42,589 nucleotides of DNA from positions 1-42,589 of the IMG/VR virus record IMGVR_UViG_3300009506_000073. One strand, written 5' to 3'. This stretch comes from a virus. Positions within the stretch are counted from its first letter, which is position 1. Each line of letters begins with the position of its first letter. A program made the translations under genes and the position numbers. This document shows, one piece after another, positions 4,112 to 23,398 of the stretch. The notes below the pieces were generated by a model that was not told where the DNA came from, did not search any database, and was given only the letters and a program-made list of their open reading frames with translations.

Positions 4112-5398
4112 ATGTTCAACATCAGAAGGCAGAAAGGGAAGGATAAGGCACTCGATCCGGGCGCTGGCGGGAGCTATGGCGAAACAGGTCTGCAACAGGG
4201 GTCTGCAGACCCTGCAGGGGGGTCTGTTCAGAACGAGAACTGGCTGGTGCGGATCGTGGCCTACGGCATCAGCCTTGCAGCAGGGGTCTGCATCAATGTC
4301 GAGGCAGTCCTGCACACCCATGACATGGGTCTGCTGATCCTGGCGGTGGGGTCTGTTTTCTTCTGCGCGCTCGGCCTCGATCAGGCATACAAAGCCATGA
4401 TTTCAAAGAGTTTTGGCCGTGCAGCACTGGCAACGATCCTTATGCTGGCCTGCCTGCCGCTGAATGCTTACAATGCCTTCACCTTGAAAAGCGAGACCAT
4501 GGCCCTGCAGGGCCAGAACAGAGCTGCCGCAGGGGTGCAGCAGACCACCCTGCAGACCGAGATCGCCACCCTGCAGACCCTGCGCGAGGCCCCTGCAGCC
4601 CTGTCGGCTGGCAAGTCGGTCGGCATGGTCGAAGCCGAGATCAAGGGTCTAAAATTTGACAAGATTTATGCACGGTCTGGAAGTTGTGAAAACATCACTG
4701 TGCAATCGTCGCGAGAGTTCTGCGATGGTCTGGCCAAAGCCGAGCAGCAACTTGCGGCTGCAAAGCGTGTCGATAGCCTCGACCAGAAGTTGAGCAATCT
4801 TCGCGCGAAACTGAGGGAAGCCACAACCAGTGTCGCCATCGAGAACCCCGGTGCGGTCCGCTTCGCCCAGCTTTCGGGCATGGATGTCGAGAGCGCCGCG
4901 CTGATGCAGATCATCTTCACCGTCCTGGCGCAGCTCGGCATCGAGGTGATCGGGCCGCTGATCCTGCTGCTGACCTTCTGCACGGTCGGCGGCGCAGTGG
5001 TCGCCCAGAAGCGACGCAGCCGTGAGCCTGAAGTCGCTGATCCGCAGCCAGACCCGGTGGTCGAGGAACAAGCCGCCGTAGAGCCCCCTGCAGCCGAGCC
5101 GCAGATCTGCGAGCCCGTGAACAGGATCGCACCGGAAGAGCTGCCGAAGGCCGAAGATGGCCTTGTGGCGGACTTCGTGGCGGCGCGCATGGTGAAGGCG
5201 CAGGGCCAGAACGTGCCGACGACAGAGGTGCATCAGGCGTATTGCCAGCACTGCAAGACCGCAGGGGTCGAGCCCCTGCATATCACCCAATTCGTGCCGC
5301 AGATTATTGCGCTCGGATTCCCGAAAGAACGTGTCGGGAAAATGTGCTTCGTCAACGCGAAGCTTCTGCCGCCAGTCCGTCTGGCGGTTTCTCAATAG
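4112..5398 (+). CDS. Four-helix membrane protein with cytoplasmic C-terminal domain, 428 aa
   Basis: Family not recognised. Predicted membrane segments lie at about 44-64, 71-90, 103-122 and 266-298. Between the third and fourth is a loop of about 140 residues with coiled-coil character and a possible disulfide pair (C192, C204). After the last segment come basic residues (QKRRSR), an acidic Pro-rich linker (305-345), then a compact C-terminal domain (350-415, with HQAYCQHCKTAG and FPKERVGKM) resembling the small winged-helix domain at the end of some phage primases; that likeness is by eye. The start at 4112 follows an eight-A run. It is the first gene of the rightward unit, and its first 500 bases hold an unusual DNA repeat cluster. 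Confidence 0.85.
   Translation: MFNIRRQKGKDKALDPGAGGSYGETGLQQGSADPAGGSVQNENWLVRIVAYGISLAAGVCINVEAVLHTHDMGLLILAVGSVFFCALGLDQAYKAMISKSFGRAALATILMLACLPLNAYNAFTLKSETMALQGQNRAAAGVQQTTLQTEIATLQTLREAPAALSAGKSVGMVEAEIKGLKFDKIYARSGSCENITVQSSREFCDGLAKAEQQLAAAKRVDSLDQKLSNLRAKLREATTSVAIENPGAVRFAQLSGMDVESAALMQIIFTVLAQLGIEVIGPLILLLTFCTVGGAVVAQKRRSREPEVADPQPDPVVEEQAAVEPPAAEPQICEPVNRIAPEELPKAEDGLVADFVAARMVKAQGQNVPTTEVHQAYCQHCKTAGVEPLHITQFVPQIIALGFPKERVGKMCFVNAKLLPPVRLAVSQ
4199..4580. repeat. Cluster of GGGTCTG / CTGCAG palindromic repeats
   Basis: Exact GGGTCTG occurs on the plus strand at 4199, 4220, 4284, 4327 and 4349, and on the minus strand at 4206-4212 and 4574-4580. Perfect palindromes overlap them: GGGTCTGCAGACCC (4199-4212), CCCTGCAGGG (4210-4219) and GGCCCTGCAGGGCC (4501-4514). 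CAGGGGT recurs at 4196, 4281, 4530 and 5262, the last inside a 7-bp stem hairpin (5261-5279). The copies fall in all three codon frames of the membrane-protein gene, so the conservation is at the DNA level. Confidence 0.75.
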
Positions 5399-5412
5399 AA
5401 GGTAATCAGCAA

Positions 5413-5799
5413 ATGCAGACCGAAATCCAGACTACGACTGAAGCCCCTGCCGGTCAAGGCAATGGGGGCCGCGAGCCTACCCGCAAGCAGATCGCTCAGA
5501 TCCGCCGCCCGAAATACGCGAAATTCCGGCGCGAGCAGTTCACCGATTGGGACCAGTTTGCGGCGGTGAATGAGGATGCTGCCGACGCTGAGGAATACGC
5601 TTACGAAAGGGGCGTCGGCGACGAGAGACTGAATATTTACAAGGCGATGGTCGATCAGGCCGATTACTGGCATCGGGCGTCCATGAACCACCATAGCGCC
5701 CATTTGAACGGGCAGGTGACCCCATATGAGGATTATTACCAGCGTTATAAGGCGTTCTCGGACGCGGCGCGGATGATCCTTGAGAGGGGGATGAGATGA
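5413..5799 (+). CDS. Hypothetical soluble protein, 128 aa
   Basis: Function not recognised. Begins MQTEIQTTTEAPAG, then a charged helical body rich in Tyr and Asp (EDAADAEEYAYERGVGDE). The ATG at 5413 is chosen because AGAAGG lies 11 bases upstream; the frame is open further upstream but overlaps the end of the membrane-protein gene. The initiation region AGAAGGTAATCAGCAA resembles that before the helicase gene. The stop overlaps the next start as ATGA. Confidence 0.75.
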   Translation: MQTEIQTTTEAPAGQGNGGREPTRKQIAQIRRPKYAKFRREQFTDWDQFAAVNEDAADAEEYAYERGVGDERLNIYKAMVDQADYWHRASMNHHSAHLNGQVTPYEDYYQRYKAFSDAARMILERGMR

Positions 5800-5972
5800 A
5801 GGCCGATTATTGGTGCAATGGGTTCGTGATCGGCACTGCGTTCGGGCTGTCGCTTCCATATGGCGGCCCGATCCCGATCATCCTTCTGAACCCTTGGCTG
5901 ATCCCGTTGGGGCTGGCACTGGTCGCGGTAATCCTCTGGATCGACCTGATCTTCAAATCCATGAACAGGTGA
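5796..5972 (+). CDS. Small membrane protein, 58 aa
   Basis: Begins MKADYWCNGFVIG. Residues 8-32 and about 33-54 are hydrophobic (LIPLGLALVAVILWIDLIF in the second), so one or two membrane passes are expected. The start overlaps the preceding stop as ATGA. Function unknown; its place in a run of small membrane proteins on the accessory strand suggests an envelope or anti-host role, which is inference. Confidence 0.65.
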   Translation: MKADYWCNGFVIGTAFGLSLPYGGPIPIILLNPWLIPLGLALVAVILWIDLIFKSMNR

Positions 5973-5975
5973 AAA

Positions 5976-6152
5976 ATGGAACTGAATATTAAGCATCTCG
6001 GCTTCTTCATGCTGCTCATCGTGGTCGCCGATGTCGGTCTTCGCCTTAATGGCGTGTGGTGGACTGGCATCCCGTCCATGGTGGCGCTCGGCGCGATTGC
6101 GTCCTTGTTCGCCTTCACCGGCGAAGGCTCTATAAAGGGGAAGATCCTATGA
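5976..6152 (+). CDS. Small two-span membrane protein, 58 aa
   Basis: Begins MELNIKHLGFFMLLIVVADV. Two hydrophobic segments (about 8-24 and 30-48) are joined by a short loop with paired tryptophans, a hairpin topology. It starts three bases after the preceding stop, and its own stop overlaps the next start as ATGA. Function unknown. It could be holin-like by size, but it is far from the endolysin and on the opposite strand. Confidence 0.65.
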   Translation: MELNIKHLGFFMLLIVVADVGLRLNGVWWTGIPSMVALGAIASLFAFTGEGSIKGKIL

Positions 6153-6451
6153 AACAGAATTGCGGAAATTGCAGCGCATGGCATAAGAGTGGCGAAGATT
6201 CGGGGGATTGTCGCGCTGTGCCCCCGACGCCGATCTTGATCGGCATGCAACAGGTGCCGATTCCGGGGAATGCGATCATGATGCCGGGCAACGGCAAAAA
6301 CATGACCACGGTGCCGATCGTGCATTCGTTCTTCCCGAGCATGAAGGCATTCGGCTGGTGCCGGTGCTGGCAACCGGCGAGCGAATCAGGGGTCGGCGAA
6401 GAGATATGCGCCGCGCCAGAAGGTGGCCTCATTGCCACAGATGCGGCGTAA
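6149..6451 (+). CDS. Cys-rich, probably metal-binding protein, 100 aa
   Basis: Begins MKQNCGNCSAWHKSGEDSGD. Cysteines at 5, 8 and 21, then a C71-x-C73 pair in a WCRCW motif, suggest a zinc-ribbon-like site holding the two ends together. The ATGA overlap with the preceding gene fixes the start at 6149. Short Cys-rich proteins of this style occur among phage early accessory genes, but I do not recognise the family. Confidence 0.75.
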   Translation: MKQNCGNCSAWHKSGEDSGDCRAVPPTPILIGMQQVPIPGNAIMMPGNGKNMTTVPIVHSFFPSMKAFGWCRCWQPASESGVGEEICAAPEGGLIATDAA

Positions 6452-6529: not shown

Positions 6530-7168
6530 ATGAAGACTATCACGAAAACAGCTCTGACCGCAATCGTCCTTATGGGCGTGTCGGCACCTGCTTATGCTAT
6601 TAATTGCAATGATGTGAAGACCTCGCCGGTCACTTGCGGCGATCTTGTCACCGGCGCGGTCGATACCGACGAAATTGCCGATGGCGCTGTCACCGAAGAT
6701 AAGCTTTCGCCTGATGTGCAGGCCAAGCTGAATACGCCCGGCCCTGCTGGCGCGGACGGAAAAGACGGCAAAGATGGTGCAGATGGCAAGGACGGGAAAG
6801 ATGGCGTCGATGGGAAGGACGGCGCTCAGGGCCTGAAAGGCGACAAGGGCGACAAAGGTCTGAAGGGGGACAAAGGGGACAAGGGCGATCAGGGTGTCGC
6901 CGGGAAGGACGGGATCGACGGCAAAGACTTCGATCCGGCTGATCTGGAAAAGGGCCTTGCCACGACCGCAGCCCTGACCGTGCCGCATATCGATCCTGGC
7001 AAAAAGTTCGGCATCGCGGTGTCACCGGCCTTCTTCAATGAGGAAGCGGCCATCGGCGTCGGCGTTGGCCTTCGTCTCGATGACACATGGCAGCTCGGCG
7101 GATCGGTCGCCACGGACTTCGACGGCAAGAACGTGGCTGGAAAGGGTGTACTGACCGGCCAGTGGTAA
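6530..7168 (+). CDS. Secreted collagen-like protein with YadA-like outer-membrane anchor
   Basis: The ATG at 6530 gives a clean Sec signal peptide (MKTITK, hydrophobic core, cut after AYA at residue 23) and has GGAA seven bases upstream; two in-frame ATGs lie just before it. A Cys pair (26, 36) and a short helical stalk (residues 40-68) precede 21 unbroken Gly-X-Y triplets (71-133), many of them GKD or GDK, as in bacterial collagen-like trimers. The last 70 residues look like the four-strand anchor of YadA-type trimeric autotransporters, with glycine-alternating strands and a terminal Trp (GVLTGQW). Expected role: a trimer displayed on the host outer membrane, affecting adhesion, phage exclusion or aggregation. 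It is the last gene of the rightward block and behaves like a moron gene. Confidence 0.8.
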   Translation: MKTITKTALTAIVLMGVSAPAYAINCNDVKTSPVTCGDLVTGAVDTDEIADGAVTEDKLSPDVQAKLNTPGPAGADGKDGKDGADGKDGKDGVDGKDGAQGLKGDKGDKGLKGDKGDKGDQGVAGKDGIDGKDFDPADLEKGLATTAALTVPHIDPGKKFGIAVSPAFFNEEAAIGVGVGLRLDDTWQLGGSVATDFDGKNVAGKGVLTGQW

Positions 7169-7192
7169 CCCTTGAGAAATTAAAGAGTTTGG

Positions 7193-7219
7193 GGGCGGTC
7201 CAGGTGGCCGCCCTTTTTT
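7193..7219 (+). terminator. Rho-independent terminator of the accessory block
   Basis: GGGCGG (7193-7198) pairs with CCGCCC (7208-7213) and is followed at once by six T (7214-7219). The pairing can extend by two GC pairs past a one-base bulge. It ends the rightward unit and overlaps the stop codon of the convergent lysis gene. On the minus strand only a weak T-rich stretch follows, so termination there is less certain. Confidence 0.9.
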
Positions 7220-7715
7220 ACGATCCAGCTTTTCCGGTCAGGGCGACTTTCGTCTGCCAGCTTCTGGTGAATTCGCCGCTGTCGAGCCGCTCAGTGACGA
7301 CGCGCAGCCGCTCTTTGGTGATAATCAGCTCTTCTCGCATATTGTCGATCAGGGTCGACTTTTCTTTCACAGTTTCCCGGATCACGGTCTGGCGCTCGCC
7401 CAGCGTCGTAAAAGGGCCGTTCATCACAGAGGTGATGATCCATATCCCGAGACCGGCCAGGACCGCGCCAGCCGTCACGATGCTGGACGTGGTGCGCACA
7501 ACCTCATTGAGGCCCGGCCCCCTACCAGCAGCCAGGGTTTCGATCTTCTTGTCGAGCCCTTGGAACATGCCGACCAGCGAGCGCACATCCTGCGTCAGGC
7601 TGCCGATGTCTTTTTCTGTTTTCCGAGCATGATCTTCGAGGGAAGACAGCCGGACATTGAAGCCGTCCATGGTCTGTGCCTTCTGTTCGGCGGAATTTGG
7701 CGATATGTTCGTCAT
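7218..7715 (-). CDS. Single-span membrane protein with coiled coils, XhlA/holin-like
   Basis: 165 aa. A predicted coiled coil (about 15-65) precedes one membrane segment (75-98, GAVLAGLGIWIITSV), followed by another long charged helix (105-148). This layout recalls haemolysin XhlA-type phage lysis proteins, but the family match is by architecture only. It is the last gene of the leftward lysis cassette and the only holin candidate beside the endolysin. The ATG at 7715 is chosen over a TTG at 7769 that lacks a Shine-Dalgarno. Confidence 0.6.
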   Translation of the reverse strand: MTNISPNSAEQKAQTMDGFNVRLSSLEDHARKTEKDIGSLTQDVRSLVGMFQGLDKKIETLAAGRGPGLNEVVRTTSSIVTAGAVLAGLGIWIITSVMNGPFTTLGERQTVIRETVKEKSTLIDNMREELIITKERLRVVTERLDSGEFTRSWQTKVALTGKAGS

Positions 7716-7791
7716 GCCAGCGATGCAGCCTTTATCTGCGCCAATGGTGCGGGTCGGTGTGGCGCGCAATCGCCGCCCGGCCCGGTCTCAG

Positions 7792-8016
7792 TCATTTTTC
7801 CGCCTTGGCCTTACGCTCAGCCGCTATGACAGCCGAATGGCTGCGGTTATGGCGCTTGATCTGCCGGATGGTGTCGGGGTCGTCGTTCTGAGAAAAGGTG
7901 ATGTATCGGTAAGGTGCAGATGACGGCACGCTGATCAGCCGTTCCTGAACTTCGGGCGGTGTGGTATTGCACCCGGCCAGGGCGAGCGCCGCCAGGGCGA
8001 TGATGGCGATCTTCAT
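7792..8016 (-). CDS. Outer-membrane lipoprotein, o-spanin (Rz1-like)
   Basis: A 74-aa protein with a lipoprotein signal peptide: MKIAIIALAALALAGC, lipobox LAGC with acylated C16, then TTPPEVQ. Its ATG overlaps the stop of the upstream i-spanin candidate as ATGA. Two-component spanins of this kind connect inner and outer membranes and fuse them at the last step of Gram-negative lysis. The mature part is longer and more charged than lambda Rz1, so the assignment rests on signal, position and pairing. Confidence 0.75.
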   Translation of the reverse strand: MKIAIIALAALALAGCNTTPPEVQERLISVPSSAPYRYITFSQNDDPDTIRQIKRHNRSHSAVIAAERKAKAEK

Positions 8017-8339
8017 TTCTTGCCATCCCGGCAGAACTTGCTGCCCTTGCAGAGTTGCGCCGCTGTCTTGTCGGTCTCGTCTGGCTCATCCGCTGCGATC
8101 TTGGCCAGCAAGTCGCTCAGCGCCCGCGACGATGCGGCCTCATTCTCGGCGATCCGGGTGTCGCAGGCCGCGCGCTCGGCCACGGTCGCCGCCTTGACCT
8201 CGCCTCGCATGTGCATCCAGACGCCACCGGCAGGCAGGCCGATCACCAGCAGGGCTGCCACGCCATAGAACAGGGCAGGCGACAGGCCCGGCATCGCCCA
8301 GCCCAGCGCCTTCCACGCGATCGATCCGATGGTCAGCAT
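8013..8339 (-). CDS. Inner-membrane i-spanin (Rz-like)
   Basis: 108 aa. One membrane segment (about 22-42, ALFYGVAALLVIGLPAGG) is followed by a periplasmic helix with coiled-coil character (48-85) and a Cys-containing basic tail (LCKGSKFC). This is the layout of Rz-type i-spanins. It starts one base after the endolysin stop and ends overlapping the lipoprotein start, the standard endolysin-Rz-Rz1 order. A class II holin is the main alternative. Confidence 0.7.
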   Translation of the reverse strand: MLTIGSIAWKALGWAMPGLSPALFYGVAALLVIGLPAGGVWMHMRGEVKAATVAERAACDTRIAENEAASSRALSDLLAKIAADEPDETDKTAAQLCKGSKFCRDGKK

Positions 8340-8340
8340 G

Positions 8341-9105
8341 TCAGCGCCCCTTCGATTTCAGATCATCGAATCGAGCCCAGACGATCACGCAGAGCACCAC
8401 GATCTGCAGCATATAGGCCGCGATCTGGAAGGACGGGATCGAGACGCCCATTTCCTTGAAGATCGCGCTGATGCCCATGAGCTGCGTCTGGCTGTCCAGC
8501 ACGACCGCGCCACCAACACCGGCGAGCGCCATCGAGGCCGTGGTCGCCCGCACGGTACGGCTGTTCGTGGCCGTCACCGGCGTGCGGTAGCCGAGCAGGC
8601 GGGCCTTGTCCTGATGCGCGATGCTGACCTTGTTGCCCTGGTTTCCGCCCAGAACGAGAATGCCCTGCGCGTCCTCGCCCATGTAGAAACCGACATGGCC
8701 CTGTGTTCCACGGGGATCACCGCGCGAGAAGACGGCGATGTCACCGAGCTTCGGCTTCGCGACCACCTTGCCCCATTGCAGATAGGATCTAGCCATGAGG
8801 GACTTCGAGCAGGGCACACCGGCCCGTTCCAGCATGGCCCCGGTGAATCCGGCGCACCACGCGGTTTCGTCGTCGTTCACCTCAGGATGACCGGCATCCG
8901 CATAATAGCGGAGCACGCGCGGATTGTGTTCCGGGCCAGGGATTTCCTTCACCCCAAGCTCGCCGCGCGCGAGCTGAAGCCACTTCGGTTCGCCTGAAAC
9001 CGGCACTTCATCCGGCAGGTCTGGCGCGCGCCGCTGCGGCTTGCCCATCAGCCATAAAAAAAGCGCCTCGATGGCGCTCGTGATGCTCTGAATAAACGCC
9101 TTCAT
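8341..9105 (-). CDS. Endolysin, NlpC/P60-type (TIGR02594-like), membrane-associated
   Basis: 254 aa. The domain at about 40-175 has the TIGR02594 signature: LGVKEIPGPEHNPRVLRYY, then the catalytic Cys in DDETAWCAGF (C84), His in GTQGHVGF (H137) and the GGNQGN turn (153-158). These enzymes cut peptidoglycan peptide or amide bonds. The N-terminus has a short hydrophobic segment and the C-terminus one or two (about 185-200 and 225-243), unusual for a freely soluble endolysin and suggesting membrane tethering. Spanin candidates follow immediately. Confidence 0.85.
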   Translation of the reverse strand: MKAFIQSITSAIEALFLWLMGKPQRRAPDLPDEVPVSGEPKWLQLARGELGVKEIPGPEHNPRVLRYYADAGHPEVNDDETAWCAGFTGAMLERAGVPCSKSLMARSYLQWGKVVAKPKLGDIAVFSRGDPRGTQGHVGFYMGEDAQGILVLGGNQGNKVSIAHQDKARLLGYRTPVTATNSRTVRATTASMALAGVGGAVVLDSQTQLMGISAIFKEMGVSIPSFQIAAYMLQIVVLCVIVWARFDDLKSKGR

Positions 9106-21743: not shown

Positions 21744-22553
21744 TCAGTAATTCCTTTGCGCGTTGCGCCCGTCAACATAGAGAACGCCCCGATCGAAGCG
21801 TCCCCTATCGCCGATTTTGTACCAGCCGCCATCAAGCGGAAATTCGGTGTCTGATCCGAGATAGCCATCGGCCACGTAAGGCGTCTTGACTTCAATCTGA
21901 CCGTCGACAATCCTCACTGCGACATCATGGGCCAGCCTTCCGACCTTTCCATCAGCGATGCCGCCGCCATTCGAGAACGCTACCAGACTGACCTCTGACG
22001 CCCCATAGCAATTGATCACCGACACCTCGAAGGCTTCAGCAATCGTCCGCCTCTGCCCTTCCGTGAGCGTCTGACCGGCCAGAGAGATGCAGCGCAAGGT
22101 GCCTCGCTTCGGCATCGTCCCGGCGCGAACCAGCGCCATGGTTGCATCGAAATACGAGACCCAGCAGGTGACGCCATGGTCGTCGATGTAGTCGGCCACC
22201 CCGCGCGGATCATCTGTGTCGGCCCACGGCACCGCCTTCAGCCCAGCCATCATCGGGGCAAGCTGTCCAGCGATAATGCTATGCGAATGCGCGAACAGGC
22301 TGGTCGGCATCGTCACACGCATGTTGTCCATGCCCATGGCGGCGACCAGATTGGCGCATCGTCCTTTGACTTTGGGCCACGGCACGATCACACCCTTGCG
22401 CTTACCGGTCGTGCCCTTGGTCCATGTGATCATGGCTGGATCGCCTGAATAGGCCAGTGCCAGATCCATCAGCTCTGCGTCATCGATCTCGATGACCGCG
22501 CTGTCGCCCTCTTCCATCGCCTCGATCAGCAGATTGCCGACGAATGGCTGCAT
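21744..22553 (-). CDS. ANL-superfamily (AMP-binding) protein 2, truncated, degenerate motifs, 269 aa
   Basis: Core motifs of adenylate-forming enzymes in order: P-loop A3 as TWTKGTTGKRKG (43-54), A5 as NCYGASE (181-187, E187 the Mg ligand), A7 as WYKIGDRGRF (244-253, D249 the ribose ligand) and the hinge VDGRN (260-264), after which it ends. It lacks the first ~150 residues and the whole C-terminal lid with the catalytic Lys (A10). Compared with ANL1, the P-loop Ser is Lys (K46) and the A7 Thr is Ile. Start 22553 is chosen because it aligns with the ANL1 start; longer starts overlap ANL1. Clearly paralogous to ANL1 (for example DDHGVTC and LRCIS in matching places). Function unknown; adenylate binding or a scaffold partner are options. 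Confidence 0.85.
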   Translation of the reverse strand: MQPFVGNLLIEAMEEGDSAVIEIDDAELMDLALAYSGDPAMITWTKGTTGKRKGVIVPWPKVKGRCANLVAAMGMDNMRVTMPTSLFAHSHSIIAGQLAPMMAGLKAVPWADTDDPRGVADYIDDHGVTCWVSYFDATMALVRAGTMPKRGTLRCISLAGQTLTEGQRRTIAEAFEVSVINCYGASEVSLVAFSNGGGIADGKVGRLAHDVAVRIVDGQIEVKTPYVADGYLGSDTEFPLDGGWYKIGDRGRFDRGVLYVDGRNAQRNY

Positions 22554-22558
22554 CGGAA

Positions 22559-23398
22559 TTATGCGGACTTGCGACCCATCAGATAGAGCTTGTCGCGCTT
22601 GATTTCCGCCAGATCGCCAGTGGAATACCATCCTTCACCATCCACGGGCAGCGGGCCTTCGCCATAGTAACCAGAGGCAAGCCCAGAGCTTCGAACCTCA
22701 AGGACGCCGCCCGCAATCCTTGCCTCGACGCCATCGACAACGCGACCGACACAGCCATCGACCGGCTCTTCGCCATCTGAGATCGACACGATGCCGGTCT
22801 CATTGCTGCCATAGATATTGATCGGCGCGATTCCATAGCCATCACGAATTTCTCGGTAAGCCTCTGCAGTCATCGGATCGCCGACCGAAATGATGCACCG
22901 CAACGTCTTTTGTTTCGGTGTCGGAAAGCTGCGCAGCATGTAAATATGCGTCCCCGGCGTGCAAATCAGGCATGTGACACCCTGGTCATCCACCACCGGA
23001 AAGATGTTCGCCCCTTCTGCGTAAGTCCATGATGCAGCTTGGCCACCAGCATAATGCGCGGCAAGGCGACCAAGCACCGCGCCGCCGCTGTAAGACGGCG
23101 AGAGCGTGCTGAGCGTCACCGCATAGTTCTGATGGCCGATCGCAGCGACTGACATGCGGCATCTCGCTTCAACCGCAGACCAAGGCACATGCACAAGCTT
23201 CTGTTCGCCGGTCGAGCCTGACGTGATCGAAACGAGACCTGCCGCGACACCATGGTCAGCCTGAAGGGTCGGACGAAACAGATCTCGGAAATGCGCCTTA
23301 TAGCTACCAACAAGGCTGACCAGATCGCCAGCAGCCCAATGCGCCACAAGGCGATCTGTGATCTGAGGCCCGTCATCGAGAAGCTGAAGGCGCGTCAT
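22559..23398 (-). CDS. ANL-superfamily (AMP-binding) protein 1, truncated at the hinge, 279 aa
   Basis: ANL enzymes activate carboxylates as acyl-AMP. This protein has A3 SITSGSTGEQK (57-67), A5 NIYGSNETG (194-202, E200), A7 GWYSTGDLAEI (256-266, D262) and stops at the hinge (MGRKSA, 274-279). The nucleotide-binding residues look intact, but the usual N-terminal third and the C-terminal lid with the catalytic Lys are missing; full enzymes are about 500 aa. Its ATG overlaps the stop of the Gly-rich adhesin gene as ATGA, so it is co-translated with a tail protein, and a paralogue follows five bases later. Possible roles: modification or assembly of the adhesin, ligand binding on the virion, or a two-chain enzyme using a lid from elsewhere. 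None is shown by the sequence. Confidence 0.88.
   Translation of the reverse strand: MTRLQLLDDGPQITDRLVAHWAAGDLVSLVGSYKAHFRDLFRPTLQADHGVAAGLVSITSGSTGEQKLVHVPWSAVEARCRMSVAAIGHQNYAVTLSTLSPSYSGGAVLGRLAAHYAGGQAASWTYAEGANIFPVVDDQGVTCLICTPGTHIYMLRSFPTPKQKTLRCIISVGDPMTAEAYREIRDGYGIAPINIYGSNETGIVSISDGEEPVDGCVGRVVDGVEARIAGGVLEVRSSGLASGYYGEGPLPVDGEGWYSTGDLAEIKRDKLYLMGRKSA

Follow-up and report, generated by a model that had tools for sequence, protein, structure and literature searches.

In trimeric autotransporter adhesins of type Vc (YadA, Hia, and AtaA; anchor family PF03895), three chains are exported by Sec, a single barrel is assembled by BAM, and the passenger ends up outside the cell. The stretch of viral DNA analyzed here (IMG/VR record IMGVR_UViG_3300009506_000073, 42,589 nt, hereafter the window) encodes a protein that has the same kind of signal peptide, the C-terminal helix followed by four strands per chain, and the aromatic last residue in common with these adhesins. 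It differs from them in that it is phage-encoded, comprises only 212 aa, and carries a short collagen-like run as its passenger in place of a head, neck, or coiled coil.

The Eib proteins are, like the window protein, autotransporters of the YadA kind and are carried by temperate phages as conversion genes. According to Sandt and Hill, they reportedly combine a YadA-like head with a coiled-coil stalk; they differ from the window protein by the lack of collagen and by their occurrence in gammaproteobacteria. EibD of E. coli is a prophage-borne trimeric autotransporter (PMC8065619). Another clear trimeric autotransporter, gp018 of the Erwinia phage vB_EamM-Bue1 (Ackermannviridae; L170:1822-3234), features a signal peptide and a YadA anchor (E 2.3e-12). 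Like its counterpart in phiEa2809, it is encoded outside the virion cluster, in Bue1 between exonuclease and dCMP deaminase among nucleotide-metabolism genes, but its long helical passenger, devoid of collagen, sets it apart from the window protein.

Collagen repeats, in turn, occur in phage fibres (PMC3368898). Collagen-like tail fibres of phages and prophages (EPclA; PHROG tail fibres; PMC3368898) share the Gly-X-Y run and a C-terminal trimerisation domain with the window protein, yet they are particle components with phage-fibre end domains and lack an outer-membrane anchor. Collagen-like proteins of bacterial surfaces (Scl1/2, Lcl, Bucl8) similarly present a collagen rod on the cell, and the NCBIfam models for SclA, SclB, and Lcl match only the collagen part of the window protein; Scl, however, is anchored by LPXTG rather than by a YadA-type barrel, and Bucl8 is part of an efflux pump (PMC7682875), likewise without such a barrel. 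While phage-borne trimeric autotransporters and phage collagen fibres are thus each known, our literature search retrieved no description of a phage protein in which a YadA-type anchor bears a collagen rod.

The corresponding gene (P0001; 6530–7168, + strand; delineated from the list of open reading frames, the translation, and Pfam) starts with the ATG at 6530, closely preceded by two further in-frame ATGs (6518 and 6524), and has a G+C content of 59.3 % as compared to 59.4 % for the window. Its first 23 residues (6530–6598, +; MKTITKTALTAIVLMGVSAPAYA, followed by I) read as a Sec signal peptide and resemble the N-termini of all six family members introduced below, in line with what the first-pass annotation had proposed. 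The latter also described a stalk, of which only part holds: a segment in front of the collagen is indeed present (residues 24–70; 6599–6739, +), but it is a short tip of 47 residues with two cysteines (Cys 26 and 36) and without recognisable coiled coil. The adjoining collagen-like region (residues 71–133; 6740–6928, +) contains exactly the 21 Gly-X-Y triplets that had been counted earlier, without any break, and is matched by the Pfam Collagen model (E 3.5e-10). A C-terminal YadA-like segment (residues 134–212; 6929–7165, +), which ends in Trp, completes the protein. Pfam scans of the window protein and of three relatives that were searched in full length returned no head, neck, or stalk domain, and the layout of a classical trimeric autotransporter adhesin (head plus coiled-coil stalk) is hence replaced by a passenger that consists of the collagen run only.

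Several lines of evidence point to a membrane anchor of the YadA kind, as had been suspected from the sequence. The window protein scores 24.9 bits against Pfam YadA_anchor (PF03895; gathering score 22.7; E 2.1e-5), and its C-terminal segment alone reaches 27.5 bits. Four related anchors individually remain below this cut-off but are matched by profile-profile comparison: with hhalign, the alignment of phage anchors (A2) was paired with that of bacterial autotransporter anchors (A4) at a probability of 98 % (E 1.7e-13, score 68.9), and still at 96 % (E 3e-9, score 48.2) when the window sequence was omitted. Permutation of the alignment columns (n=100) gave maxima of only 14.6 and 15.9, respectively, whereas reversed alignments scored 33.0 and 23.6; part of the profile-profile score is therefore generic. 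When the PDB was searched by sequence, the window anchor by itself yielded nothing relevant and the phage anchor profile found YadA only (E 0.66), so that structural comparison was needed for identification. AlphaFold2 predicts the single chain of the window anchor as a linker helix (model residues 7–19; 6935–6973, +) followed by four barrel strands (model residues 31–40, 43–53, 58–67, and 73–82; 7007–7162, +) with a mean pLDDT of 83. In a Foldseek search of this model against 350,542 PDB chains, the top five entries were the anchors of AtaA (9vnj), Hia (3emo, 2gr7, and 2gr8), and YadA (2lme), each with a probability of 1.00 and TM-scores of 0.65–0.71, followed at rank six by an unrelated enzyme (0.35). 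VIA-align ranked the same five anchors (AtaA, three Hia entries, and YadA) first with Z values of 8.3, 8.2, 7.7, 7.4, and 7.3, the next one being 4.9. Moreover, the anchor of the relative L303, predicted from relatives only and without the window sequence, again placed these five entries on top, with TM-scores of up to 0.79.

One might argue that this likeness merely reflects generic amphipathic beta structure and that the protein ends up in the periplasm or is secreted, for which the sub-threshold Pfam scores of the related anchors and the score of the reversed alignment could be cited. The forward score is 68.9, the window sequence passes Pfam by itself, and the five anchor entries come first, by a wide gap, for both of the separately predicted structures, all of which renders this reading the least probable of those considered here. 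The last residue is Trp in all six members, i. e., the aromatic C-terminus associated with recognition by BAM. Having passed Pfam, profile-profile comparison, structure prediction, and Foldseek, the segment is best regarded as a putative outer-membrane anchor on a secreted collagen-like phage protein, and the four strands predicted per chain would add up to a 12-strand barrel in the trimer.

The window protein is not the only one of its kind. Five further proteins follow the same plan, giving six distinct members that combine a signal-peptide-like N-terminus with a single collagen run and the anchor, the new ones comprising 159–265 aa and 16–41 triplets without a globular head: L300 (identical to L302; 238 aa, 41 triplets), L303 (206 aa, 21 triplets), L304 (265 aa, 31 triplets), L307 (identical to L308; 159 aa, 16 triplets), and L371 (202 aa, 28 triplets). 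The last of these is closest to the window protein (47 % identical overall, 52–53 % over the last 83 residues). All anchors end in Gly-Trp or Gln-Trp, and five of the six members have two cysteines between signal peptide and collagen, a distance that shrinks to only about 15 residues in L300 and L307. The collagen sequences, in contrast, differ (charged with K/D in the window protein, rich in Pro and Gln in the others), and the tips are not conserved.

Ordinary searches miss these relatives because the collagen swamps the signal. A search with the full protein returned only collagen matches in unrelated viral contigs, and none of the 77 viral records it delivered reaches the Pfam anchor cut-off, which is an undercount since the anchors of the relatives miss the Pfam model. 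Scans of viral and genome contigs with the anchor alone found nothing, phage and plasmid collections gave weak matches or none, and an initial mixed alignment (A1) proved too divergent to be used in pattern scans. A match in an Acinetobacter phage was discarded as a chance hit inside a ddrB-ParB-domain protein. About 1,100 bacterial genomes were searched with the full-length protein or a profile, which gave two copies. Among 385 alphaproteobacterial genomes, one relative was detected that led to others in viral contigs, and a close relative was found by profile among 397 genomes from the order of Rhizobium. The 346 genomes from the order of G168 (Rhizorhabdus) gave no match in a search that had no positive control.

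Relatives of the anchor also exist on bacterial chromosomes, there without collagen, either as short forms of 160–220 aa or as classical head-bearing autotransporters. L375 and L379 (head-bearing) as well as L360 and L364 (short and collagen-less) were rejected as members, as were the collagen proteins of L377, which show no such anchor. The short autotransporters occur in Hyphomicrobiales (L360, L364, and G173:C1:1216346-1216525) and are paired in G1194 and G1267; their head motif, VRVC..GYQYIPGTETCVRV, is porin-like, and their anchor is similar to that of the phage proteins. L379, from the same bacterial family as L371, terminates in VVAGKAGVTFGW, which is close to the phage anchors, and this C-terminus hints that the phages may have taken the anchor from their hosts.

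In the window, the collagen gene is the last of a short group on the + strand and converges on a lysis cassette on the − strand, beyond which the virion genes are located. As stated in the first-pass annotation, it has its own Rho-independent terminator (7191–7219, +), a GC-rich hairpin (approximately 7191–7215) 3' of the stop codon followed by U6, with a folding energy of -17.6 kcal/mol (z -2.5); a simple terminator scanner did not list this hairpin. Upstream, the same strand (4112–6451, +) encodes a 428-aa membrane protein (4112–5398) and two further products (approximately 5413–5799 and 6149–6451) for which no clear families were found; together with the collagen gene at the end, these genes may form one transcription unit. 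The convergent cassette (7218–9105, −), which lies outside the fibre gene and serves as context only, consists of a holin-like gene (7218–7769), a lipoprotein gene resembling o-spanins (7792–8016), an i-spanin-like gene (8013–8339), and a CHAP endolysin gene (8341–9105; Pfam and PHROG), the holin and spanin roles being read from the sequence. The endolysin has an apparent C-terminal transmembrane segment, as does that of L082, and the PHROG that matches the window endolysin best is a baseplate hub/tail lysozyme.

Further genes on the − strand specify a P22-like stabilisation protein, portal, terminase, DnaB-like helicase, and primase. The host of the window phage is probably an alphaproteobacterium, because terminase relatives in named bacterial genomes come mostly from Rhizobium, Methylobacterium, and further Hyphomicrobiales. 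The window showed no integrase. L082, from a 64.8 kb record, has an endolysin that is 57 % identical to that of the window and carries a tyrosine-integrase-like gene (L082:15786-16925, −), which suggests temperate members in this phage group. Sizes of 55–71 kb are seen for many of the terminase relatives and for G078, which bears an integrase, and the window may thus represent less than a whole genome. Among relatives that share the terminase or endolysin, the collagen autotransporter gene was found neither by Pfam (48 records) nor by BLAST (39 records, with three collagen-type matches). In the virion/tail region of the window, two adjacent genes (21744–22631 and 22559–23398, both −) encode AMP-binding proteins of the adenylating enzyme type (PF00501, 5.4e-22 and 9.4e-19). 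A homologue adjoins a glycosyltransferase-like gene in the tail region of a prophage in G1042 (L371:5249-6046), the same prophage that also holds the closest collagen autotransporter.

All loci of the family belong to phages or prophages, including both copies from the bacterial genomes searched, which are located in prophages. On its bacterial contig, L300 (present with the same sequence as L302 in IMG/VR) is flanked on one side by an M15 endolysin gene and on the other by the gene for a 2019-aa tail fibre together with one additional gene. The L303 gene is convergent with an endolysin gene, as in the window, and that of L304 lies near an amidase. The copies in L307 and L308 have a small-terminase-like gene on one side and the large terminase gene on the other; directly upstream, close to the large terminase, both encode an Acb2/Tad1-hairpin protein (L307:155-424 and L308:2471-2740; PF24729, 3.5e-10), a family of anti-CBASS sponges. 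Lastly, the L371 gene, from a genome of the order Hyphomicrobiales, occupies the end of a prophage that also encodes terminase, portal, and tail fibres; it is on the opposite strand and adjoins host genes. The placement on an accessory strand that had been noted for the window, opposite to the lysis and virion genes, is shared by L303 but does not amount to a family trait, as L300 and L307 are encoded on the late strand together with virion or lysis genes; the timing of expression may accordingly differ between carriers.

Proximity to endolysin genes (in the window, L303, L304, and L300) could imply an accessory of lysis, i. e., a phage protein of the outer membrane that would weaken this membrane when the cell lyses. 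Since the cassette of the window already contains spanin-like genes, the fibre protein would not be needed for this purpose; the copies in L307 and L371 are, moreover, outside any recognised lysis cassette, and nothing about an anchor of the trimeric autotransporter type is suggestive of membrane disruption, which makes such a role highly improbable. We are slightly more sceptical still about a virion fibre, in which the protein would be part of the particle and the C-terminal domain a mere trimerisation module. Phage fibres commonly contain collagen repeats (PMC3368898), a cyanophage virion includes a structural protein with a “YadA domain” (PMC9146016), and the genes of L300 and L371 are near tail-fibre genes. 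Virion proteins, however, assemble in the cytoplasm, and the signal-peptide-like N-terminus of all six members therefore argues against this location. In addition, the anchor resembles membrane-embedded anchor structures rather than fibre tips, and the gene is located outside the virion cluster, and opposite to it, in the window, L303, and L371; a tail-fibre gene would be expected within that cluster and without a signal peptide, neither of which applies to the window gene.

Building on the domain plan, the predicted anchor fold, the family, and its phage and prophage locations, we consider it likely that the protein is displayed as an anchored collagen fibre on the occupied cell, an estimate that does not extend to the benefit for the phage. 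The gene product would represent a small, head-less trimeric autotransporter similar to type Vc systems, three chains of which would be exported by the Sec machinery of the host. In the host outer membrane, the C-terminal segments of these chains would then combine into one barrel, aided by the BAM complex of the host, and the collagen triple helix with its small two-Cys tip would stick out from the infected or lysogenic cell, forming a rod of approximately 18 nm if fully extended (21 triplets, i. e., 63 collagen residues at about 0.29 nm each). Trimerisation, membrane insertion, and surface exposure are in this scheme deduced from sequence and model. That six phages and prophages with little else in common share this protein points to a useful trait in circulation, and, along with surface display, we deem it likely that an accessory (“moron”) gene is moving among unrelated alphaproteobacterial phages.

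What this fibre might be good for can be addressed only tentatively. Characterised trimeric autotransporters of the YadA type are typically adhesins or aggregation factors. As a product of lysogenic or infection conversion, the displayed rods could attach cells to one another, to surfaces, or to polysaccharides, for example, to retain infected cells in biofilms. Phage-borne examples fit this picture, namely the prophage-borne EibD (PMC8065619) and the gene of the Erwinia phages Bue1 (with its clear YadA anchor) and phiEa2809, which is annotated as adhesin or STEC autoagglutinating adhesin. None of the six members has a head domain, though, neither collagen sequences nor tips are conserved, and the late position of L307 between the small and large terminase genes would leave little to gain from adhesion. 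We therefore lean, without much conviction, towards a non-specific steric collagen brush that hinders the adsorption of competing phages, or of progeny to debris and to cells already occupied; the odds for adhesion or aggregation are only slightly lower. The brush is favoured because a globular adhesin head is missing throughout and the tips vary, and a non-specific rod is preferred over a specific receptor-binding adhesin for want of a head and in view of the very short tips of L300 and L307. Phage proteins that block receptors upon conversion are known, for example, Llp of T5. Cor of phi80 and N15 is another one (PMC11436027). Both are unrelated to the window protein, and their likeness to the adsorption block proposed here is functional and hypothetical.

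Taken one step further, the members could constitute a dedicated, mobile family of collagen autotransporters without heads, distributed over unrelated phages of alphaproteobacteria, that coats the occupied cell with a collagen brush to control which phages adsorb to it, be it for superinfection exclusion or for the protection of progeny, a conceivable scenario that we put forward with reservation. With this protein, the phages appear to give their occupied host cells a new surface. If it is indeed displayed, it would represent a minimal natural type Vc system with one anchor, one rod, and no head, useful for studying the BAM-dependent export of a collagen triple helix as well as for surface display, and would constitute a new way for a phage to alter the surface of its host.
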